Positions 9,577 to 20,400 of a DNA stretch of 64,000 nucleotides are shown here, in pieces. Every line of letters starts with the position of its first letter. Within the stretch, counting starts at the first letter, position 1. This stretch comes from Cohaesibacter marisflavi (lineage in GTDB: Bacteria > Pseudomonadota > Alphaproteobacteria > Rhizobiales > Cohaesibacteraceae). The position numbers and the translations under genes are program-made. Under the pieces are notes generated by a model. It was not told the origin of the DNA. It was given only the letters and a program-made list of their open reading frames with translations, and ran no database searches. The DNA lies in contig NZ_FOVR01000001.1 of NCBI RefSeq assembly GCF_900115225.1, positions 248,001 through 312,000 on the forward strand. Direction: 5' to 3'.

Positions 9577-9910
9577 TTTGAGGCGATGAGACCTGATCAG
9601 CCCCGGTCAGCTAACATTAGCTTAACCAAAATTTCCAAATAAATTGTAATTATTTACCCTGATACGCAAATTGTTCTCATTCGGTTCAGATTCAATAGCA
9701 CATTGAAAATAATTCAGAAAGTCTCGTCCGGAAAATAGACACCGCTCAGCTTGACACTGATGGTCCGAAAAGGAAAATAAAAGCTCACTGAGCGCTCTAT
9801 TGCGACATATTCTGAGTGTTTGATATGTCCAGATTTGACAAAATTTCAAATTTGGCTTTAGCTTTTGATATTCATTTCCCGATTGCTCTTCTTCAGACAA
9901 GGTATTTTTG
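9577..9910. other. AT-rich divergent intergenic region between tamA and a LysR gene
   Basis: This 334-bp gap lies between divergently transcribed genes and must hold promoters in both directions. I see no ORF with protein-like composition, no hairpin terminator and no clear inverted repeat of operator length. Confidence 0.5.
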
Positions 9911-10858
9911 ATGGATATTCGCAATTACACCAGCTTTGTTGCCGTGGCCGAATTGATGAATTTCACAAAGGCTGCGGAACGGTTGAATATCACCCAGTCT
10001 GCCCTTTCCCGACAGGTCAAGGCGCTTGAAGATTATCTGGGCGTAAAACTTTTCGAAAAGTCTGGACGAAATATACGCTTCACCCCGCAGGGCGAGGCTC
10101 TACTGGCCAAGATCAACAATGTTCTGGTGGCGGATAGGGAACTGCGTACCTTTGCAGACGATCTCACAGAGGGGGAATCCGGCCTTCTCAAAATCGGCGC
10201 ATGCTCGCAACTGATCGAGCGCTACATGCCGAGCTTTCTGAAGAAATGGACCGAAGACAATCCGGACATCGAGATCCGCCTTGAAGATGGCGGTGGACCT
10301 GAGCTGGCGAGCAAGCTGGTGGATGGTGTCTTCCATCTGACCATCAGCGCCGAACCGTCTGCACCGATCGAGGTTTTGGAAAGTCGTCCTCTGGGGCAGC
10401 TCGGTTTTCTGGCTGTTGGTGGCGCGGAGTTTCTGGGCAATGAGGAAGACCCGATCGAGATTGAAGAATTGCTTAGCCTGCCCATTCTGACGCTCAATAA
10501 GAAACATGTCTCCCGTGAGGTGTTTGATGCAGCCTGCCGGGTGAGTGGAACCGTGCCTCGTGTGGTGCTGGAGAGCAATTCGCCCCACACGTTGCTGGCC
10601 ATGTCTATCGGCGGCAACGGCGTAGCTGTCGTGCCATCGTCTGCCCAGCCGCAAGAGCCAAAGCTGCGCAGCCGCCCCATTGCGCTCAAGGGTGAACCGA
10701 TTACCTTTGGGATTTGCGCCATGTGGAATGTGCGCCAGCCGTTGCCCGCCTATGGTCAGCGCTTTATTGATTCCCTCGGAGACCATATTTGTAACGAGCA
10801 ATATCAGGAAGAATTTTCACTTCATCCCGCACAATATGGGCATCTTCAGGTCATATAA
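9911..10858 (+). CDS. LysR-family transcriptional regulator
   Basis: This 315-residue regulator has an N-terminal winged helix-turn-helix (residues 1-60, with FTKAAERLNITQSALSRQ) and a two-lobed effector-binding domain (about 90-300). The ATG at 9911 is preferred over the TTG immediately before it. It lies just upstream of, and in the same direction as, the ABC/SMP-30 operon that begins at 11031, and a T-N11-A dyad sits in the gap between them. By position it is the likely regulator of that operon; the effector is unknown. Confidence 0.88.
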   Translation: MDIRNYTSFVAVAELMNFTKAAERLNITQSALSRQVKALEDYLGVKLFEKSGRNIRFTPQGEALLAKINNVLVADRELRTFADDLTEGESGLLKIGACSQLIERYMPSFLKKWTEDNPDIEIRLEDGGGPELASKLVDGVFHLTISAEPSAPIEVLESRPLGQLGFLAVGGAEFLGNEEDPIEIEELLSLPILTLNKKHVSREVFDAACRVSGTVPRVVLESNSPHTLLAMSIGGNGVAVVPSSAQPQEPKLRSRPIALKGEPITFGICAMWNVRQPLPAYGQRFIDSLGDHICNEQYQEEFSLHPAQYGHLQVI

Positions 10859-11030: not shown

Positions 11031-12002
11031 ATGAGCTTCATAAAAAATCTCAATCAGGAAAGCATCGTACTGGCGATTACGGTGGTTATGTTTGCGCTGG
11101 CGTCTTTGCTTCTGCCGGGTTTCTTCTCGGCAAACAATCTGGTTGCCATTGTGCGCTCTGTTTCCGTTTTGGGGATCCTTGCTCTTGGCATGGCCATGAT
11201 TATTATCGGTCGTGGCATTGACCTTTCCATGGTAGCCATCATGGCTATGTCCGTTGCCTGCTATTTGCAAATGCTCAATTCGGGCATGGGAGAGGGGAGT
11301 GCTCTTGTTCTGGCTTTGGCTGGCGTGTTGGCCATCGGGCTGATTAACGGCGTTCTGGTGGCCTATGCCGATGTGCCCGCTATTTTCGTAACGCTGGCCA
11401 GCTCATCATTCGTTTTCGGCTTTGTGCGGTCCCAGCTGATCAACACCGATGCTGTCCCTGTGCCGTCCGGGCACTGGGTCGAGATTCTTGGCGGTATGCG
11501 CTTTATGAGCATTCCGGTCGAGGTCTTCCTCTTTGCCGGTCTTGCCCTTGCGACTTTCCTGTTCCTGCGTTACAGCAAGTGGGGACGCTATGTCTATTAT
11601 GCGGGCGACAACCCGGAGGCTGCGCGCAATTCCGGCATGCCGGTCCGTCCGATGATGGTGCTGCGCTATGTGATTTCCGCGCTCATTGCCTTCATCGCCG
11701 GCATTCTTACTGCTTCCAGCCTGCATTCCATCAATACCCGTATCGTCAATTCCAACCTGCTCTATGACATTGTGCTGATCACGGTCATCGGAGGCATCGG
11801 CCTCTCAGGCGGCAAAGGGGGCGTGCGCAACGTTTTGTTCGGCGCAGCTCTTATCGGTATTATGCTCAACGCCATGACGATCATCGATATTCCGCTGCTC
11901 TACCAGAATCTGATCAAGGCAGGCATCCTGCTGGGCGCCATCATCGTCGACGGTATTCTCAATCCCCGCGATGAACAGACTGCGCAGCAGGGAGACATTT
12001 AA
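11031..12002 (+). CDS. ABC transporter permease, RbsC-type (carbohydrate uptake family)
   Basis: This 323-residue polytopic protein has about 8-10 hydrophobic segments and the RbsC/AraH-family core (ILALGMAMIIIGRGIDLS and GGIGLSGGKGGV). It is one of two RbsC-type permeases of this operon; the other is at 13371 and is fused to an enzyme-like domain, so the importer probably uses a permease heterodimer. It is the first gene of the operon, 123 bp before the binding-protein gene. The substrate cannot be read from sequence. Confidence 0.88.
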   Translation: MSFIKNLNQESIVLAITVVMFALASLLLPGFFSANNLVAIVRSVSVLGILALGMAMIIIGRGIDLSMVAIMAMSVACYLQMLNSGMGEGSALVLALAGVLAIGLINGVLVAYADVPAIFVTLASSSFVFGFVRSQLINTDAVPVPSGHWVEILGGMRFMSIPVEVFLFAGLALATFLFLRYSKWGRYVYYAGDNPEAARNSGMPVRPMMVLRYVISALIAFIAGILTASSLHSINTRIVNSNLLYDIVLITVIGGIGLSGGKGGVRNVLFGAALIGIMLNAMTIIDIPLLYQNLIKAGILLGAIIVDGILNPRDEQTAQQGDI

Positions 12003-12125: not shown

Positions 12126-13157
12126 ATGAACATCATCAAGACCCTTATGGCCGCGACTGCGGCGCTTACCATCAGCTCAGCCGCCCTTGTTACGCAGGTT
12201 GCTGCCGCTGGCGATCCTGCACCACAGATCTATGCAAAGGCCATGGAAGGCAAGCGTATCATGCTCGTGCCGATGGCCATGGGCTTCGATCTGGCGCAGG
12301 GCTGGGCCGCTATCCTGAAGCGTGAAGTGGACGCCTTTGGCGGTATCTTCGAAACCCGCGACCCCAACTGGAGCGTGGAAGCTGGCGCACAGGCCATCAC
12401 CGAAGCCATTGCCTCAGAAAACAAGCCTGATGTTCTGATTGTCATGTCACCGGACATGAACTCCTATTCCAAGCTGATGAAGCGCGCCCAGAAGGCTGGC
12501 ATCTATGTCATCCTCGTGGACAACCCGGCCAACTTCAAGGCTGATGCCTATGTTGGTAGTGATTGGACCCAGCTTGGCCGTCTGGAAGCAGAAGCCGTTG
12601 TCAAAGGCTGTGGCCCGGATTCTTCCAAGAAGATTGGTCTGGTGCAGGGCGATCAGGTCAACGCAACCAGCCTGTTCCAATATGCAGGCATCATGGAAGT
12701 GCTCGCCAAATATCCTGAGTTCGAAGTGGTCGCCAAGCCTGATTCCAACTGGGATGCCACTACCTCGCGTAACGTGACCACCACCATGTTGCAGCAGAAT
12801 CCTGATATCTGCGGCATCATCGACTTCTGGGATGGGGATGCCTCTGGTGCCGCCGCAGCCATTCGCGATGCTGGCAAGCAGGACGATGTTTTCCTTGTCA
12901 CCACGGGCGGCGGTGAGAAAACCGCTGACTGTGATCTCATCGAAGATGGCACCTATGGTGCCGTGGTCATGACTGACTTGGCTCAGGAAACCCACAATAT
13001 GGTGGCGATCATCAAATATCTGCTCCAGAGCGGTCAGCCTGCAGGCACCTCAGCGCCGTATATCTACACGTTGCTGAAGGCAACCACCAAAGACAACCTC
13101 AAGCCTGACAGCTGTTGGGATCTTGCCGCGCTTCAGGCTGAAGCTGCTGGCGAATAA
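12126..13157 (+). CDS. ABC transporter periplasmic substrate-binding protein (RbsB/PBP1-like)
   Basis: This 343-residue protein has a Sec signal peptide (about 1-27, ending in AAAG) and the two-lobed fold of the periplasmic-binding-protein-like I family. Family-like segments include VLIVMSPDMNSYSK, GIYVILVDNPANF and the hinge region around IIDFWDGDASG. It is the soluble receptor of the ABC importer encoded on both sides. Four internal cysteines are unusual for this family and might form disulphides. An RBS (AGAGGGACAG) precedes the ATG. A strong hairpin just after the stop may protect its transcript and give the excess expression usual for binding proteins. Confidence 0.88.
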   Translation: MNIIKTLMAATAALTISSAALVTQVAAAGDPAPQIYAKAMEGKRIMLVPMAMGFDLAQGWAAILKREVDAFGGIFETRDPNWSVEAGAQAITEAIASENKPDVLIVMSPDMNSYSKLMKRAQKAGIYVILVDNPANFKADAYVGSDWTQLGRLEAEAVVKGCGPDSSKKIGLVQGDQVNATSLFQYAGIMEVLAKYPEFEVVAKPDSNWDATTSRNVTTTMLQQNPDICGIIDFWDGDASGAAAAIRDAGKQDDVFLVTTGGGEKTADCDLIEDGTYGAVVMTDLAQETHNMVAIIKYLLQSGQPAGTSAPYIYTLLKATTKDNLKPDSCWDLAALQAEAAGE

Positions 13158-13172
13158 AAGTCGCGATCTGGT

Positions 13173-13197
13173 CTGGCAGCGCTTGGGGCGCTGCCAG
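13173..13197 (+). terminator. Post-binding-protein hairpin (attenuator or mRNA-stability element)
   Basis: CTGGCAGCGC and GCGCTGCCAG form a perfect 10-bp stem with a 5-nt loop, 15 bp after the binding-protein stop. The following bases (CCTTAATC) lack a T-run. It is therefore more likely a partial terminator or 3' stabiliser inside the operon than a full stop. Confidence 0.6.
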
Positions 13198-13370
13198 CCT
13201 TAATCAGGCGCGGGCAGGGTGCTTTTAGTCTGCCCGTTCCACTCCGCCTCCTTGCCGGTGCTGATCCGCAGTCAAGCAGGTGGAATCTTTGTTTTTTCTA
13301 TTCCCACTCCGTCTCTTTCTGGAATCCTCCCTTACGTGACGGATGGCTCAAGTCGTCGGAAAATTGATAG

Positions 13371-15494
13371 ATGGCCTTTCGTGAAAGACTGCAAGCCTGG
13401 CGCTACAATACCATTCCTGATCATCTTATCGGGGAGATCCTGACCAAGCGTTGGACGGATAACGCCATTCCCTTCATTGCCCTGGTGATCACTGTGGCCG
13501 CCTTCGGATCTGCTATTCCGGGGTTTTTCAGACCCTATTCCTTGCAGGAATCCACCCGGCAACTGGGGGAATTCTCTCTGGTTGTTACGGGGTTGTCAGT
13601 TGTCATGCTGGGGGGCGGCATCGACCTTTCGGTTGGCTCCATCTTTGCGCTGGCGACATTTGCGTCTGTTGGGACCTTCTTCATTTTCGAAGCGCCGGTG
13701 TGGGTCTGTCTGTTGGCTGCCATCGCAACGGGTGTTGTCTGCGGCGCGATCAACGGCTATCTCATCGGCTTTCTGCGCCTGCGCGCTTTCCTTACCACGC
13801 TGGTGACCTTCATCATCGGGCGTGCCCTGTTTGATATTCTCGTGGTGCAATATGGTGCCGCAACGCAGATGTCCTTCATGTCGTCCGACTTGTGGGATTT
13901 CATCGGTGATGGCACGCTGTTTGGCTTCTCGGTGCCGGTGTTGACGGCGATTGTCTTTGCGCTGATCACCCACATTGCTCTCACCCGATCGAGGCCTGGC
14001 TGGCATGTGCAGGCAGTTGGGGGCTCTCGCCGCTCGGCGCATAATGCCGGTATCCGCGTGCGGCGCACTGTTTTCATGACCTATGTCTTTTCAGGCTTTT
14101 GTGCCGGCGTGTCTGGCTTCCTCATGGCAACACGATTGTCGAGCGCTGGGCCGGGCACAGGCCACGGTCTTGAAATTCTGGCGCTGACGGCTGCCGTTGT
14201 TGGCGGCAACTCCTTGGGCGGTGGTCGTGGCTCCGTGGTCAAGGGCATCATGGGCGCGATCATCGTGCTGGTGATGACCAACGGTCTTATTCGCCTTGGC
14301 TTCGGTACGGGCACCAACCAGATGGTCCTCGGCATCATGTTGGCGCTCGCTGTAACCATCGATATCCGCTGGCTGAAAAACCGCCACAAGGTGCTCAACG
14401 AGGTCTATGTCGCGCCGGTCTATCTCAAGATGGGAAAATCGGAATCCGCAGAACCTGGATCTGGTTCGGCCTATTCCCTCAACAACAAGCTTTCCTCGGC
14501 CCAGCATATAGGTCTGGGCGAGTTGGAAGGGCCTGAGGATGTGATCCTCGACCGCGATGATCATCTTTATTGCGGCACACGCCATGGCGAGATCATCCGC
14601 TACTTTGCACCCGACTATAAACGGTCTGAAGTCTTTGCCCATGTCGGTGGCTTCCCGCTGGGGCTGGCCTTCGACAAGGATCAAAACCTCATCACCTGCG
14701 TTGGTGCAATGGGGCTCTACAAAATCTCGCCGGACCGCGAAGTCACGCGCCTTTCTGCCGAGACGCGCCGTTCGCTGACCTCCATCGTCGATGACGCCCG
14801 CATGCGTGATCCGAACGACCTCGACATCGCGCCTGACGGCAAGATCTATTTTACCGATTCCACCAAGCGCTATGATGCTCATGAATGGATGCTCGACTCT
14901 ATTGAGAACCGTGGTACAGGGCGCCTGTTGGTCTATGATCCCAAGGATGGCTCCACCAAGACGCTGCTTGATGGCTACCGCTACACCAACGGCGTGTGCA
15001 TGGCCCATGATGGTCAGTCGCTCTATTTCTCTGAAAGCTGGAGAAGCCGCATCCATCGTTATTGGATCGCTGGCCCCAAGGCAGGTACCGTGGAATGTGT
15101 CATCAAGGATATGCCGGGCTATACCGATAATATCAACCGTGCGTCCGATGGCACCTACTGGATGGCATGGCTCGGCATGCGCACACCCAGTTTTGACCTC
15201 TCACTGCGCCACCCGGACATGCGCAAGCGCATGACCCGTCGCCTGCCGCAGGATGACTGGTTGTTCCCGAACATCAACACCGGCGGTATCGTCAAATTCG
15301 ACGACAGCGGCACAATCATCCAGACCATGGGTGATCTTACCGGTCAGAACCACCCGATGGTGACCTCGATGCGCGAGCATAAGGGCAAGCTCTTTATCGG
15401 AGGCATTCTGAACAACCGCATCGGCCTGTTTGATATTGAAGGCGCCGACCCGAATTGGACCGGCATGACGTCCTATTGGGGAGAAAAAGCATGA
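13371..15494 (+). CDS. ABC permease (RbsC-type) fused to SMP-30/strictosidine-synthase-like beta-propeller
   Basis: The 707-residue protein has an RbsC-type permease (about residues 1-330, with VVMLGGGIDLSVGS and GGNSLGGGRGSVVKG). A short linker leads to a six-bladed propeller of the SMP-30/gluconolactonase/strictosidine-synthase class (about 380-700, with LEGPEDVILD, DPNDLDIAPDGKIYFTD, NGVCMAHDGQSLYFSE and GYTDNINRASDG). The reading frame is continuous across the junction, so this is a real fusion. RbsC-type permeases usually end in the cytoplasm, so the propeller would sit at the cytoplasmic exit and could open or hydrolyse the incoming substrate (inference). The stop overlaps the next start by 4 bp (ATGA), implying translational coupling with the second propeller gene. 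Confidence 0.88.
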   Translation: MAFRERLQAWRYNTIPDHLIGEILTKRWTDNAIPFIALVITVAAFGSAIPGFFRPYSLQESTRQLGEFSLVVTGLSVVMLGGGIDLSVGSIFALATFASVGTFFIFEAPVWVCLLAAIATGVVCGAINGYLIGFLRLRAFLTTLVTFIIGRALFDILVVQYGAATQMSFMSSDLWDFIGDGTLFGFSVPVLTAIVFALITHIALTRSRPGWHVQAVGGSRRSAHNAGIRVRRTVFMTYVFSGFCAGVSGFLMATRLSSAGPGTGHGLEILALTAAVVGGNSLGGGRGSVVKGIMGAIIVLVMTNGLIRLGFGTGTNQMVLGIMLALAVTIDIRWLKNRHKVLNEVYVAPVYLKMGKSESAEPGSGSAYSLNNKLSSAQHIGLGELEGPEDVILDRDDHLYCGTRHGEIIRYFAPDYKRSEVFAHVGGFPLGLAFDKDQNLITCVGAMGLYKISPDREVTRLSAETRRSLTSIVDDARMRDPNDLDIAPDGKIYFTDSTKRYDAHEWMLDSIENRGTGRLLVYDPKDGSTKTLLDGYRYTNGVCMAHDGQSLYFSESWRSRIHRYWIAGPKAGTVECVIKDMPGYTDNINRASDGTYWMAWLGMRTPSFDLSLRHPDMRKRMTRRLPQDDWLFPNINTGGIVKFDDSGTIIQTMGDLTGQNHPMVTSMREHKGKLFIGGILNNRIGLFDIEGADPNWTGMTSYWGEKA

Positions 15495-16546
15495 TCCTCG
15501 ATCCCATCCTCGATATTTTCCGCGGCAAGGCCGTCACCATTCCGCCCATGGATGGCGCTTTCCGTCCCAACACGGTGCTGGATGACGCCGAAATTGTCTC
15601 CCACCTTTCCGAGCCGGACAATCTGGCCGTGCTGAAAGGAGAGGTGATTGCCACCTCGGGCAATGCCATCTATGCCATAAACAAGGGCAACGAGCCCAAG
15701 GTGCTGCGCTCTTTCGAAGCGCCGATCACGGCCCTGGCTGTTTCGCCCGACGATAAACTGGCGGTCGCTCTGGAAACTGGCCAGCTCTTCGTTGAAGGGG
15801 AGCCTGTCCATCTGCTCGAAGAGATCAAGGCAATCACCGCACTGGCCTATTCCTATGATGGCTCTCTCTGGTTGGCCAATGGCTCTTCGGAACATGCCTG
15901 CTCGGATTGGGCTGCCGACCTGATGAGCAAGAAGGCCTGCGGGTCTATCTGGGTGCGCCATACCCCTAGCGAGCCGTTCGAAAAGGTCGCCGGCGGCTTG
16001 GCCTATCCCTATGGTCTGTGCCCCTTGAGCGGTGGCCGTGTGGTCTTCTCTGAAAGCTGGAAGCATCGCGTGATGCAGATAGATGCAGATAAGAATGTCT
16101 CCACGCTGATTGACCAGATTCCCGGATATCCCTCCCGCATCATGCCGACAGAGGATGGTGGTGCTATTCTTTCCGTTTTTGCTCCGCGCAACCGGCTGGT
16201 TGAGCTGGTGCTACAGGAAAAACATTATCGCTATGACATGATGGAAAGCGTTCCCCGCGAATACTGGATTGCTCCGGCGCTCTATTCCAACCGCAGCTTC
16301 CTTGAGCCGCTGCAATGTGGCGGCATCCGCACCATGGGTGTTTACAAGGCTTGGGCCCCGGCTCGTTCCTACGGCATGGTCGTGCGGTTGGGCAAGGCCA
16401 TGAACCCGATCACCAGTATGCACAGCCGTTCAAATGGCAACCGTCATGGTGTCTGCTGCGCCATCGAGCATGGTGGCGAGATCATCGTCGCTTCCAAGGG
16501 CGGTGATTTGCTGCTTGGCATCGAAGATACGAAAGCGGAGGGCTAA
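15491..16546 (+). CDS. SMP-30/strictosidine-synthase-like beta-propeller protein
   Basis: This 351-residue soluble protein has no signal peptide. Repeated propeller blades include EPDNLAVLKGEVIATSGN, ITALAVSPDDKLAVAL, LAYPYGLCPLSGGRVVFSES and GYPSRIMPTEDGGAILS. These match blade motifs of the propeller fused to the preceding permease, so the two domains are probably related partners. The start at 15491 is set by the ATGA overlap with the upstream gene. Its likely role is a cytoplasmic lactonase or hydrolase in the operon's pathway; the reaction is unknown. The metal ligands of true SMP-30 cannot be assigned securely by eye. Confidence 0.78.
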   Translation: MILDPILDIFRGKAVTIPPMDGAFRPNTVLDDAEIVSHLSEPDNLAVLKGEVIATSGNAIYAINKGNEPKVLRSFEAPITALAVSPDDKLAVALETGQLFVEGEPVHLLEEIKAITALAYSYDGSLWLANGSSEHACSDWAADLMSKKACGSIWVRHTPSEPFEKVAGGLAYPYGLCPLSGGRVVFSESWKHRVMQIDADKNVSTLIDQIPGYPSRIMPTEDGGAILSVFAPRNRLVELVLQEKHYRYDMMESVPREYWIAPALYSNRSFLEPLQCGGIRTMGVYKAWAPARSYGMVVRLGKAMNPITSMHSRSNGNRHGVCCAIEHGGEIIVASKGGDLLLGIEDTKAEG

Positions 16547-16550
16547 GGAT

Positions 16551-18047
16551 ATGGACCCCATCATTCGCATGGAAAAAATCACCAAGGCCTACCGCGGCGT
16601 TCCTGCCATCAAGGACGTGGATTTCGAGCTGCACAAGGGCGAAGTGCACGCGCTTCTCGGTGAGAACGGCGCTGGCAAATCCACCCTTACCAAGATGATG
16701 GCGGGCGTGGTCGAGCCAACCAGTGGCAAGATGTTCCATCATGGCAAGGAGACGGTCTTTACCAACCCGAATGAGGCACTTGAAGCGGGCATTGCCATGG
16801 TGTTTCAGGAAACCAGCCTTGTTCCATCCATGACGGTGGCGCAGAATCTTTATCTGGGCTCGGAGAGCTTCCTCAATCGCTTGCGTGGCACCTTCATTTC
16901 GGCCCAGCAGTTCTTGCAATCGCTCAACTTCTCTGTAGACCCGACAGCGTTGGTCGCCACCCTTGGTGCTGCCAAGCGGCAGATGGTCGAGATTGCCCGT
17001 GCGGTGCATCACAAGGCCGAAGTCATCATTTTCGATGAGCCGACCGCTACCCTTACACCGGAAGAAAAGCGCCATTTCTTTGCGCTGATCGAGCGGCTCA
17101 AAAAGAGCGGCGTGTCGATTATCTTCATCAGCCATGCCCTTGAGGAAGCACTTCAGATTTCCGATCGCATCACCATCCTGCGCGATGGTGAATTGGTGGC
17201 CAGTGACAAGACCGAGAATTTCACCCGCGACACGGTGATTGCTGCCATGGTCGGCCGTACCCTTTCGGGCGAGCTTTATCGCGATCGTGGCGAAAGCGGC
17301 GTACGCAAGGCGGGCAAGAAGGTGCTCTCCGTGCAGGATATTTCCATGGGCGCCATGGTTCGCAACAACTCTTTCTCCGTTTTTGCTGGCCAGATCACCG
17401 GCGTCTTTGGGCTGATCGGGTCTGGCCGTACCGAGACTTTCAAGATCATTTCCGGCATCTACAAGCGCGACTTCCTGCGCGGCGGAACCGTGGTGCTCAA
17501 CGAAAAGCCGACCCGCTATTATGTACCGCGCGAAGCGGTCAATGACGGTATTGTCTATGTCACCGAAGATCGAAAGAGCGAAGGCTTCTTCGAAACCATG
17601 TCGATTGCCGAGAATATCTATGCGGGGCTCATTGCTGCCGGTCATGACAAGGCCTGGTATATCAGCAAGAACGAAATGAGCGATGTAGCGGCCGCCTGGT
17701 CCAAAAAGCTGAACATCAAAGCCATTAATGACAATGCCCGCGTGGTCGAGCTTTCCGGTGGTAACCAGCAGAAGGTAGTGATCGGCAAGGGACTGGTGCA
17801 GGAGCCCAAACTGGTGATTTTCGATGAACCCACCCGCGGTGTGGATGTGGGGGCTATTGCGGAAATCCATCAGATCATCAACGGCTTGGCTGATCAGGGG
17901 CTGGCGGTGGTGGTGATTTCTTCCTACCTGCCAGAGATCATGAACCTCTCAGACCGTATTCTCGTCTGCCGACAGGGGCGCATCGTGGAGGAATTTTCAC
18001 CTGCTGAGGCGACCGAGGAAAAAATCATGTATGCGGCAGTCCATTAA
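16551..18047 (+). CDS. ABC transporter ATP-binding protein, RbsA/MglA-type (two ATPase domains)
   Basis: This 498-residue protein has two nucleotide-binding domains. The first has Walker A GENGAGKST and Walker B VIIFDEPTATLTPEE, but a weak signature (LGAAKRQ). The second has a degenerate Walker A (GLIGSGRTE), signature LSGGNQQKV and Walker B LVIFDEPTRGVDVG. One complete and one degenerate site is normal for sugar ATPases of this class. The start at 16551 (MDPIIRMEKI) is 4 bp after the preceding stop and follows TAAGGAT; a longer in-frame extension upstream would overlap the propeller gene and is rejected. It energises the permease pair of this operon. Confidence 0.92.
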   Translation: MDPIIRMEKITKAYRGVPAIKDVDFELHKGEVHALLGENGAGKSTLTKMMAGVVEPTSGKMFHHGKETVFTNPNEALEAGIAMVFQETSLVPSMTVAQNLYLGSESFLNRLRGTFISAQQFLQSLNFSVDPTALVATLGAAKRQMVEIARAVHHKAEVIIFDEPTATLTPEEKRHFFALIERLKKSGVSIIFISHALEEALQISDRITILRDGELVASDKTENFTRDTVIAAMVGRTLSGELYRDRGESGVRKAGKKVLSVQDISMGAMVRNNSFSVFAGQITGVFGLIGSGRTETFKIISGIYKRDFLRGGTVVLNEKPTRYYVPREAVNDGIVYVTEDRKSEGFFETMSIAENIYAGLIAAGHDKAWYISKNEMSDVAAAWSKKLNIKAINDNARVVELSGGNQQKVVIGKGLVQEPKLVIFDEPTRGVDVGAIAEIHQIINGLADQGLAVVVISSYLPEIMNLSDRILVCRQGRIVEEFSPAEATEEKIMYAAVH

Positions 18048-18073: not shown

Positions 18074-18931
18074 ATGATGGCATCCGAGCGCGCAATGTGG
18101 ACCTATTACAAGGGCGATTGGCATGAGGGAGATGTGCGCATTCTGGGCGCCGCTTCTCATGCAACATGGCTCGGGTCTTTGGTGTTTGACGGCGCGCGCC
18201 TGTTTGAGGGCGTTTCACCGGATCTGGACCTGCATTGCCAGCGGATCAATCGCTCTGCTGAAGCCCTGATGCTGGACCCGACCTTTACGGGGGAAGAGAT
18301 CGAAGCACTTGCCAAAGACGGCATCAAGAAATTTGCTCCCGATACCGATGTCTATATCCGGCCAATGTATTGGGCAGAGGAAAGCGATATCGGTACCTTG
18401 CCACCGCTGGCCTCATCGACCGATTTTGCCCTTTGTCTCGAAGAAATTCCGATGGTGGAGCCGTCAGGTTTTTCCATTACCACCACCCAGTTCCGCCGCC
18501 CGACCATTGCCGTTGCACCGACCAACGCCAAGGCAGCCGGCCTTTATGCCAACAATGCCCGCATGGTGCGTGAAGCCCAGAAAAAGGGCTTTGACAATGC
18601 ATTGGTCACCGATTGCGCGGGCAATGTAGCCGAACTGGCCACCGCCAACGTTTTCATGGTGCGCGGCGGGGAGGTGTTCACCTCCATCCCCAATGGCACC
18701 TTCCTTGCTGGCATCACGCGCAAGCGTGTCCTCGGGCTGTTGCGCGACGCTGGCTACACCGTGCATGAAATGACCCTGACGGTTCAGGATTTCATGGAAG
18801 CGGACGAAATTTTTTCTACCGGGAATATCTCCAAGGTCATCCCGGTATCTCGCATAGAAGACCGGGAACTCGCATACGGGCCAATCACCAAGAAGGCTCG
18901 TTCACTCTATATGGAATGGGCACACGCCTAG
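18074..18931 (+). CDS. Branched-chain-type (class IV) PLP aminotransferase
   Basis: This 285-residue fold-type IV PLP enzyme resembles IlvE and D-amino-acid aminotransferases. It has LVFDGARLFEGV near residue 36, the PLP lysine in APTNAKAAGLYANN (about residue 157), and GNVAELATANVF with the cofactor-contacting glutamate. It sits in the ABC/SMP-30 operon with a GAGGAGAAAC RBS (GAGGAGAAACATG). Inside a catabolic operon it more likely transaminates an imported amine or amino acid than makes branched-chain amino acids. Substrate unknown. Confidence 0.82.
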   Translation: MMASERAMWTYYKGDWHEGDVRILGAASHATWLGSLVFDGARLFEGVSPDLDLHCQRINRSAEALMLDPTFTGEEIEALAKDGIKKFAPDTDVYIRPMYWAEESDIGTLPPLASSTDFALCLEEIPMVEPSGFSITTTQFRRPTIAVAPTNAKAAGLYANNARMVREAQKKGFDNALVTDCAGNVAELATANVFMVRGGEVFTSIPNGTFLAGITRKRVLGLLRDAGYTVHEMTLTVQDFMEADEIFSTGNISKVIPVSRIEDRELAYGPITKKARSLYMEWAHA

Positions 18932-18943
18932 GAGGATACCACA

Positions 18944-19351
18944 ATGGCAACTGTCAAATTGCTCACCAATGAAGAAGCCGAAAAGATCCCGGCCGTAAAG
19001 GAAGTCTTTGACGAAATTCGCGACCTGCGCAAAACCGACTTCATCAACAACTTCTGGCGTGCGCTGGGAGCGGCTGATCCGGCCTTGCTCAAACGCACAT
19101 GGGAAGGGCTCAAGGCTGTCATGATGACACCGGGCAACATTGACCCGATGACGCGCGAGATGATTTACATCGCCGTTTCAGCAGCCAACGCCTGTTCCTA
19201 TTGCCTGCATTCGCACACGGCGCAGGCCCGCGCCAAGGGTATGACTGAAGACACCTATGCCGAGTTGCTCTCCATTGTCGGGCTGGCTGCACAGACGAAC
19301 CATATGGTGACTGCTATGCAGGTGCCTGTTGACCCCGAATTTTTGGCCTGA
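18944..19351 (+). CDS. Carboxymuconolactone decarboxylase / AhpD-like family protein
   Basis: This small 135-residue helical protein has the AhpD-like redox motif in NACSYCLHSHTAQARAKG: CxxC followed by histidine. It follows the aminotransferase by 12 bp with an AGGAGG-like RBS. Family members act as alkylhydroperoxidases, lactone decarboxylases or thiol-redox partners. The CxxCxxH form here points to redox or peroxide chemistry rather than decarboxylation. Its link to the next gene, a quinone oxidoreductase, suggests a redox step in the same pathway. Confidence 0.82.
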   Translation: MATVKLLTNEEAEKIPAVKEVFDEIRDLRKTDFINNFWRALGAADPALLKRTWEGLKAVMMTPGNIDPMTREMIYIAVSAANACSYCLHSHTAQARAKGMTEDTYAELLSIVGLAAQTNHMVTAMQVPVDPEFLA

Positions 19352-19428
19352 GCGCCTGACATAAACACATGACTTGGGCTCCGACGCCTCTTTTTGATGC
19401 GGCGTCGGTGCAAAAATCGGAGAAGAAA

Positions 19429-20400
19429 ATGGATATGGCACTTGTCGCTTCCAGACCTGGTGGTCCGGAAGTCATGAAGTGGTGCGCGCTGGAAACAGGC
19501 GAACCCGGACCCGGAGAAGCCTTGGTGCGCCACACTGCAATTGGCGTCAATTTTATCGATGTCTATAATCGCACGGGGCTTTATCCCTGGGCAGAAGACA
19601 CGATGATCCCCGGCGCGGAGGCTGCTGGTGTTGTAGAAGCCATCGGTGCAGGCGTCGAAGGGCTCAAGGTTGGCGACCGGGTTGCTTATGTCCTCAAGTT
19701 CGGTGCCTATCGCGAGCGCCGCGTGCTTGCCGCGGATCGTCTGGTTGTGCTGCCCGATGGGGTATCCGATGACCTAGCTGCTTCCGTTATGCTCAAGGGC
19801 CTGACCGCGCAGTATCTCGTTACCTCCTCCTATGCCGTCAAGGCAGGGGATACGGTGTTGGTTCATGCCGCCGCTGGCGGGGTTGGCCTCATTCTGGGCC
19901 AGTGGCTCAAGGCCCTGGGCGCGCGCGCCATAGGCACGGCAGGCTCGGCGGAAAAGGTCGCGCTTGCGCTTCAGCATGGCTATAGCGATGTCATCAACTA
20001 TCGTGAAGAGAATTTTGCCGAGAAGGTCATGGAACTGACCGGAGGCGAAGGCTGCGAAGTGGTCTATGACAGCGTTGGTAAGGATACATGGCGTGGGTCG
20101 ATCAGTTGCCTCAAGCCTTTTGGCATGTTTGCCAACTTTGGACAGTCGTCCGGCATGATCGAGGATTTCAAACTCTCCGATTTGGCCAGTGGATCAAAAG
20201 CCGCCTGCCGCCCTGTGTTGTTTGACTATGTGGCCAAGCGGTCCGATCTGGAAGCACGCGCTGCGGATCTTTTTGACAAACTTGTCAGTGGTGCGGTGAA
20301 GGCCGATGTGGTGGCATCCGTACCTTTGAAAGACGCAGGCAAAGCCCACAAGGCTCTGGAAGGGCGCAAGACCACCGGAGCCACCATTCTCAAACCGTGA
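19429..20400 (+). CDS. Quinone oxidoreductase (zinc-free MDR family, QOR-like)
   Basis: This 323-residue medium-chain dehydrogenase/reductase has a GroES-like fold at the N-terminus (NFIDVYNRTGLYP) and a Rossmann fold with VLVHAAAGGVGLILGQ. It lacks the structural-zinc cysteines, as in NADPH:quinone reductases. The start at 19429 is chosen over an in-frame ATG 60 bp upstream because GGAGAAG lies 4 bp before it and the homology begins there. It is the last gene of the ABC/SMP-30 operon, followed by a convergent terminator. Confidence 0.88.
   Translation: MDMALVASRPGGPEVMKWCALETGEPGPGEALVRHTAIGVNFIDVYNRTGLYPWAEDTMIPGAEAAGVVEAIGAGVEGLKVGDRVAYVLKFGAYRERRVLAADRLVVLPDGVSDDLAASVMLKGLTAQYLVTSSYAVKAGDTVLVHAAAGGVGLILGQWLKALGARAIGTAGSAEKVALALQHGYSDVINYREENFAEKVMELTGGEGCEVVYDSVGKDTWRGSISCLKPFGMFANFGQSSGMIEDFKLSDLASGSKAACRPVLFDYVAKRSDLEARAADLFDKLVSGAVKADVVASVPLKDAGKAHKALEGRKTTGATILKP

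Follow-up and report, generated by a model that had tools for sequence, protein, structure and literature searches.

What might the permease of an ABC importer do with a strictosidine-synthase-like propeller attached to its C-terminus? The question is raised by a reading frame of Cohaesibacter marisflavi, located at positions 13371-15494 of the forward strand of the window, by which we mean the whole stretch of 64,000 nucleotides that was analysed (contig NZ_FOVR01000001.1, positions 248,001 to 312,000). In the original prediction, which was made from the sequence alone, the frame was read as a hydrolase or lactonase tethered at the exit of an import channel. If this is true, the ABC importer would act as a chemical trap, in which transport and the first catabolic step are combined in one protein, and the arrangement may let cells split a nutrient during its entry. 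The genes and residues of the window that are described below lie on the forward strand.

A Permease and a Propeller in One Reading Frame

The frame 13371-15494 translates into 707 residues without an internal stop. The fusion protein comprises an RbsC-type permease (residues 1 to about 340), a linker (about 341-378) and a strictosidine-synthase-like propeller (about 379-707). This order had been claimed from the uninterrupted frame and is borne out by the domain search of both halves that had been suggested with it. In Pfam, the permease half matches BPD_transp_2 (E 1.1e-34, residues 66-327), and the propeller half (residues 368-602) matches Str_synth (E 2.1e-23), SGL (E 2.6e-16) and SSL_N (E 4.6e-14). 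The profile scores place the fused propeller within two of these families, with 82.7 bits for Str_synth (cut-off 25) and 52.4 bits for SSL_N (cut-off 18.9). The permease half gave no match in the PDB at E 0.01, either as a single sequence or as a profile. AlphaFold modelling of the whole fusion resulted in a pLDDT of 51 and a pTM of 0.44, from an alignment of 36 sequences that included 35 relatives of 79-96% identity; only the helix boundaries of this model were used, after adjustment by hand, for the loop charge count given below.

The Cassette in the Window

The fusion is part of a five-gene cassette in the order permease, binding protein, fusion, second propeller and ATPase. The first gene (11031-12002; BPD_transp_2, E 4.7e-29) encodes an unfused RbsC-type permease, the partner of the fusion, which is found in all 105 loci that are uncut by a contig end. 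It is followed by a periplasmic solute-binding protein (12126-13157; Peripla_BP_4, PF13407, E 7.8e-43), whose closest relatives in the PDB are remote ribose/allose-type binding proteins and which scores below the cut-off of all 10 NCBIfam models listed. Downstream of the fusion lie the second propeller (15491-16546) and an RbsA/AraG-type double ATPase (16551-18047), in which PF00005 matches two stretches; with the AraG model, this ATPase scores 467 bits, below the cut-off of 689. A BPD_transp_2 permease, a PF13407 binding protein and a double ABC ATPase in one cluster characterize the CUT2 (RbsABC-type) importers, and all of these are present here. Among the models listed, curated NCBIfam transporter cut-offs are reached by none of the four importer parts, namely both permeases, the binding protein and the ATPase, the last being judged from the best 25 of 190 rows. 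When the genome of the window was queried with the fusion, 26 matches were obtained; 24 of them are permease-like sequences, and the other two are the second propeller and the fusion itself.

Upstream of the cassette, a LysR-type regulator (9908-10858; Pfam HTH_1 and LysR_substrate) is the probable regulator of these genes, and a LysR relative lies upstream in some of the related loci. The gap between the binding protein and the fusion (13158-13370) has a predicted RNA fold of -83.2 kcal/mol (z -3.27), a value as low as which was found in 0 of 200 shuffles, and contains two GC-rich hairpins shortly 3' of the binding-protein stop. Hairpins of such kind can allow excess production of the binding protein.

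Conservation and Origin of the Fusion

The survey of fusion frequency and neighbours that had been suggested was carried out on 112 loci, namely the window and the loci L038-L129, L150-L157 and L162-L172, which form 18 clusters when grouped at 70% identity, with 85 loci in a single cluster. The fusion frame is uninterrupted in all 112 loci (111 distinct sequences), which contradicts the idea that the junction is a sequencing artefact absent from relatives, and all five cassette genes are present in 105 of them, the remaining 7 being cut by contig ends. The search of genome contigs returned 148 relatives; the best 80 were retained, and each of these covers nearly the whole query. On plasmids, 15 of 1780 matching records cover at least 80% of the fusion query, Pantoea and Paraburkholderia being among them. 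Within the genus of the window, the fusion occurs in 11 of 18 genomes. Ten of these, counting the genome of the window, show 88-100% identity, and the eleventh shows 53%; among named relatives, two Cohaesibacter genomes are the closest, at 96% and 88%. A sample of the class, with up to three candidates scored per genome, contained 9 full-length fusions in 7 of 289 genomes, again including the window's own.

Most of the 112 loci were retrieved with the whole fusion as the query, and therefore a profile of the propeller only is the fairer test of the fusion state. This profile was run against 398 evenly sampled genomes of the phylum (E 1e-30, up to five candidates scored per genome), and 42 matches from 32 genomes were obtained. 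Seventeen matches exceed 500 bits, each of them in a frame of 707 amino acids or more; they come from 11 genomes, all of which belong to the class of the window. The other 25 matches reach at most 278 bits; 24 of them lie in frames of 354-520 amino acids, and one is in a 627-amino-acid frame beside a fusion.

For a quick tree, the 119 fused, 119 second and 22 stand-alone rows were thinned to 28, 35 and 19 propellers, respectively. With midpoint rooting, each of the three groups occupies one side of a branch (SH-aLRT 97, 100 and 95 for fused, second and stand-alone propellers), and the second propellers sit on a long branch. As each group falls on one side of a branch, the simplest reading of these sequences is that the fusion arose once. 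Some genomes harbour several diverged fusion cassettes (three each in G334 and G459, two each in G066, G643 and G263); the presence of two or three diverged cassettes in one genome suggests that they serve different solutes.

Side of the Membrane

Ten helices were placed in the permease. Their boundaries were drawn manually, with the low-confidence fusion model as a guide; hydropathy on its own fuses helices 2-4. Across 21 sequences, the lysine and arginine sum is 16.5 in the loops predicted to be inside, compared with 1.9 in those predicted to be outside. The inside loops include an arginine-rich loop (residues 205-230), which is the expected contact of the ATPase, and the KNRHKVL stretch past the last helix. 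After residue 345, the most hydrophobic 19-residue stretch averages 0.88, compared with 2.19 in the permease. Because of the excess of positive charges inside and the lack of a strongly hydrophobic stretch past residue 345, the fused propeller is predicted to be cytosolic. A periplasmic propeller, which would have spoken against the original prediction, is thus contradicted by charge counts and hydropathy, both at the level of prediction. For RbsC itself, the C-terminus lies in the cytoplasm.

At the other end of the protein, residues 1-30 (13371-13460) form a conserved extension before the first helix, which is predicted to be cytosolic and in which G21, E22, L24, K26 and W28 are invariant in 21 sequences. 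This extension is a possible contact for a propeller.

Metal-Ligand Positions in the Propellers

TGW6, the plant strictosidine synthases and squid DFPase all align with a profile built from 22 fused propellers. Four metal-ligand positions are recognized in the fused propeller, namely E389 (14535-14537), N482 (14814-14816), N540 (14988-14990) and D586 (15126-15128), at which TGW6 has E, N, N and D in the profile alignment. In the plant strictosidine synthases, glycine is found at the third and fourth of these positions (N540 and D586), the first two lying outside the alignment. The fused propellers do not share this absence of metal ligands, as both N540 and D586 are kept.

Among the distinct fused sequences, E389, N540 and D586 are each found in 106 of 106, and position 482 is N in 86 and D in 20, the latter residue likewise occurring in 19 of 22 stand-alone relatives. 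In the second propellers, E occupies the first position in 3 of 106 sequences and N the second in 4 (otherwise T, S, A or I); N is found at the third in 9, and the aspartate of the fourth is replaced by A, S or G in all 106. The complete set of E, N or D, N, and D is thereby present in all 106 fused and in 21 of 22 stand-alone propellers, and in none of the 106 second propellers, counted as distinct sequences in the alignment; with duplicates, the ligand rows amount to 119 fused, 22 stand-alone and 119 second propellers. A further signature of the fused group is H661 (15351-15353), a position occupied by histidine throughout the 106 fused propellers and by L, I, V, F or Y in all 22 stand-alone relatives. 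Judged from this pattern, H661 is a candidate for a functional residue special to the fusion.

For SSL proteins that retain the four ligands, hydrolysis is considered more likely in an excerpt of a review (PMC4215206). From its residues, the fused propeller is apparently an active N6P-type hydrolase of the SSL subgroup; its metal site can also be one that serves structure only. As for an active-site cavity, whose absence would have counted against the original prediction, the four ligand positions are in place in the sequence.

The Second Propeller

The second propeller starts on the stop codon of the fusion, in an ATGA overlap (15491-15494). Of the 112 loci, 99 have ATGA and 9 have GTGA at the fusion stop (93 and 5 in a separate count of 100 rows), and in 108 of them a frame of 300 codons or more begins at the overlapping start. 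No Pfam or NCBIfam match was found for this reading frame at E 0.001. Compared with the fused propeller by profile, it gave an hhalign probability of 99.5 (E 9.1e-23), and its AlphaFold model (pLDDT 84) has strictosidine synthase (E 3e-13), TGW6 and paraoxonase as best PDB matches, with Drp35 also among the matches.

As an N6P hydrolase, the second propeller would be expected to carry the four ligands, and 0 of 106 distinct sequences do so. In sequence terms it is a pseudoenzyme paralogue of the fused propeller, a pseudoenzyme because the ligand set is gone in 106 of 106 and a paralogue because of the hhalign match and the AlphaFold fold. The earlier view of the next gene as an ATGA-coupled second propeller agrees with the overlap, the hhalign match and the AlphaFold model. 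A second enzyme of the same kind does not fit the absence of the ligand set.

A Probable Hydrolase at the Channel Exit and Its Alternatives

Since the fusion is conserved, its propeller is predicted to be cytosolic and its ligand positions are intact, a tethered hydrolase at the exit is the best reading of the locus. We consider it rather probable, from these comparisons, that the cassette encodes a CUT2 importer with two permeases, one of which carries a cytosolic metal-dependent propeller hydrolase that would cleave an imported lactone or ester at the channel exit. The hydrolase of the original prediction gains from the predicted cytosolic side and the intact ligand positions, and the coupling of import and opening is what we infer.

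Such an importer would be of the RbsABC type (CUT2) with two unlike permeases, and the C-terminus of one of them would form a six-bladed, metal-dependent hydrolase of the SSL subgroup of the N6P superfamily, located in the cytosol. A solute containing a lactone or ester linkage would be captured by the binding protein and brought in by the permease pair and the RbsA-like ATPase. At the exit, the propeller would cleave it to the free hydroxy-acid, or to an acid and an alcohol, and the hydrolysed solute, unable to leak back, would pass on to catabolism. The second propeller, devoid of a metal site, would probably pair with the first and scaffold or regulate it. The asymmetry of enzyme and dead propeller would mirror that of the permease with and the permease without an enzyme; a pairing of the dead propeller with the fused propeller or with the other permease is speculative. 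More broadly, a conserved import-and-open class of ABC importers may exist, with a permease-borne enzyme, a pseudoenzyme in an asymmetric pair and a substrate that varies between cassettes (mevalonolactone in at least two), a generalization that we put forward tentatively and with more doubt than belief. If true, the cassette would offer a clean system for studying the effect of tethering on net uptake, as it combines an active with a dead propeller and a permease with an enzyme and one without.

The main rival of the tethered hydrolase is trans-inhibition, in which the fused propeller, perhaps together with the second, would bind, on the cytosolic side, the solute that has entered or a product of it and shut the importer down, the metal site being structural. 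C-terminal domains shut down some ABC importers in this manner (MetNI and ModBC). A domain tethered to the permease would be well positioned for acting on the ATPase, and the second propeller is kept in all 112 loci even though its metal site is lost. Against this stand the four ligand positions, which are kept in each of the 106 fused propellers and lost in the sister, and which 21 of 22 stand-alone relatives also retain, so that we regard trans-inhibition as unlikely. It is also conceivable that the propeller is a real hydrolase that works on the cytosolic pool, with the fusion providing equal dosage and a membrane location, and no channelling. There is indeed an Rbs-type importer whose genes are followed by a separate one annotated as gluconolactonase. 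However, all 17 strong propeller-only matches are fused, with up to five candidates scored per genome, as are all 119 rows of the fused group, although these loci were mostly retrieved with the whole fusion as the query, and a mere scaffold function of the fusion appears quite unlikely.

Two further explanations concern the reaction and the frame itself. Str_synth is the top Pfam match of the propeller, which would fit a condensation like that of strictosidine synthase instead of hydrolysis; yet the plant enzymes are without the last two ligands, whereas the fused propellers have both, and the excerpt of PMC4215206 reads ligand-bearing members as hydrolytic. Condensation is therefore very improbable. 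For an artefact of assembly or annotation, or a periplasmic propeller, no evidence was found, although the fusion model is of low confidence and the topology is placed by prediction; either is hardly credible given the 112 open loci and the 11 of 18 genomes of the genus with the fusion, as well as the charge counts and the lack of a strong hydrophobic segment past residue 345.

Relation to Known Systems

The proposed tethered-hydrolase importer shares its type of permeases, its binding protein and its double ATPase with the RbsC/AraH-type CUT2 importers (NCBIfam NF007067, NF008441 and others). It differs from these by two unlike permeases, one with a C-terminal propeller, and by the gene of a second propeller. 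With the SSL subgroup of N6P, represented by TGW6 (PDB 8kg3) and stand-alone bacterial SSL proteins, it has SSL_N, Str_synth and the four ligand positions in common; unlike its stand-alone relatives, it has the permease fusion and the invariant H661. A chemical change of the solute at import, acting as a trap, is known from group translocation by the PTS. There, the modification itself drives transport, whereas in the proposed importer ATP would drive it and hydrolysis would follow. Drp35 of Staphylococcus aureus belongs to the same superfamily and likely shares the reaction type; in an excerpt of its description (PMC6052127), this lactonase is presented without a transporter part, in contrast to the fusion.

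An unfused parallel, as annotated, is found in Neorhizobium on plasmid pNCHU2750a (406-5788; locus L158), where the genes rbsB-rbsA-rbsC-rbsC-gluconolactonase follow each other; here, the lactonase is a separate gene and a second propeller is absent from the annotation. Some weak single tblastn matches on plasmids, at about 26% identity, extend across a permease and a lactonase. They need not represent further fusions, as one of them, L158, consists of two separate annotated genes in this region; two others carry no annotation.

Both halves of the fusion are of already known kinds, and what may be new is their combination with a pseudoenzyme partner. A full-text search of the open-licence literature, outside of which most subscription papers lie, found no description of a permease-propeller fusion with a pseudoenzyme partner. 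The databases already contain fusion proteins, mostly named for the propeller alone. Of 11 annotated plasmid loci, 9 list the fusion protein as 'SMP-30/gluconolactonase/LRE family protein' and 2 as a permease, while the second propeller is entered as a 'hypothetical protein' in 9 and as a 'strictosidine synthase' in 2 of them; a twelfth locus carries no annotation. Annotation thus hides the fusion, and the permease subunit is overlooked in 9 of these 11 loci.

Substrate Leads and Neighbouring Genes

The genes next to the cassette are diverse between clusters, and therefore the solute probably differs between clusters as well. A degradative HMG-CoA reductase (TIGR00532, cut-off 260) adjoins two cassettes, with 434 and 431 bits. 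Degradative HMG-CoA reductase uses mevalonate. In Shinella sp. HZN7, its gene lies directly upstream of the cassette, the annotated gene end and the permease start overlapping by one base, and in L171 it lies two genes upstream, with a CoA-transferase III in between. The two fusions are 55.5% identical, and each is nearer to other fusions than to the other. The N6P lactonase Drp35 converts mevalonolactone to mevalonate at 478 umol/min/mg, according to the excerpt of PMC6052127. By analogy, mevalonolactone is the best lead for the substrate of these two cassettes, a link that was chosen post hoc from many neighbours and concerns 2 of 18 clusters, the cluster of the window not being among them. 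The TIGR00532 gene occurs in 8 of 289 genomes of the class, and the L171 genome has one copy. None of those 8 class genomes has it next to a fusion: in 7, the matches listed include no full-length fusion, and in G203 the two are about 256 kb apart.

Other neighbours were less informative as to the substrate. Carboxylate-activating enzymes, namely CoA ligases (AMP-binding) near 5 of 18 clusters and CoA-transferase III near 4 of 18, were dropped as a clue, with ten of these genomes carrying 5 to 68 AMP-binding genes each. An amidohydrolase and aldehyde and alcohol dehydrogenases recur near cassettes and name no substrate.

In the window, the ATPase is followed by three accessory genes. These encode a class IV aminotransferase (18074-18931; NF009896, 488 bits, cut-off 262), which is accessory in the window's subgroup, a carboxymuconolactone-decarboxylase-family (CMD) protein (18944-19351; PF02627, E 9.4e-20), and an NADPH:quinone-reductase-like protein (19369-20400; NF008024, 328 bits, slightly under the cut-off of 348). 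At a distance of up to 6 kb, the aminotransferase accompanies 19, the CMD protein 81 and the quinone-reductase-like protein 23 of the 112 cassettes, in 2, 3 and 2 of the 18 clusters, respectively. The trio is recurrent in the window's subgroup and points to no particular solute; in Shinella PSBB067, it is located upstream of the cassette, not downstream. In two further loci (L150, 13530-16184; L151, 2828-5476), an acyl-CoA synthetase and an enoyl-CoA hydratase are encoded in one gene directly downstream of the cassette.
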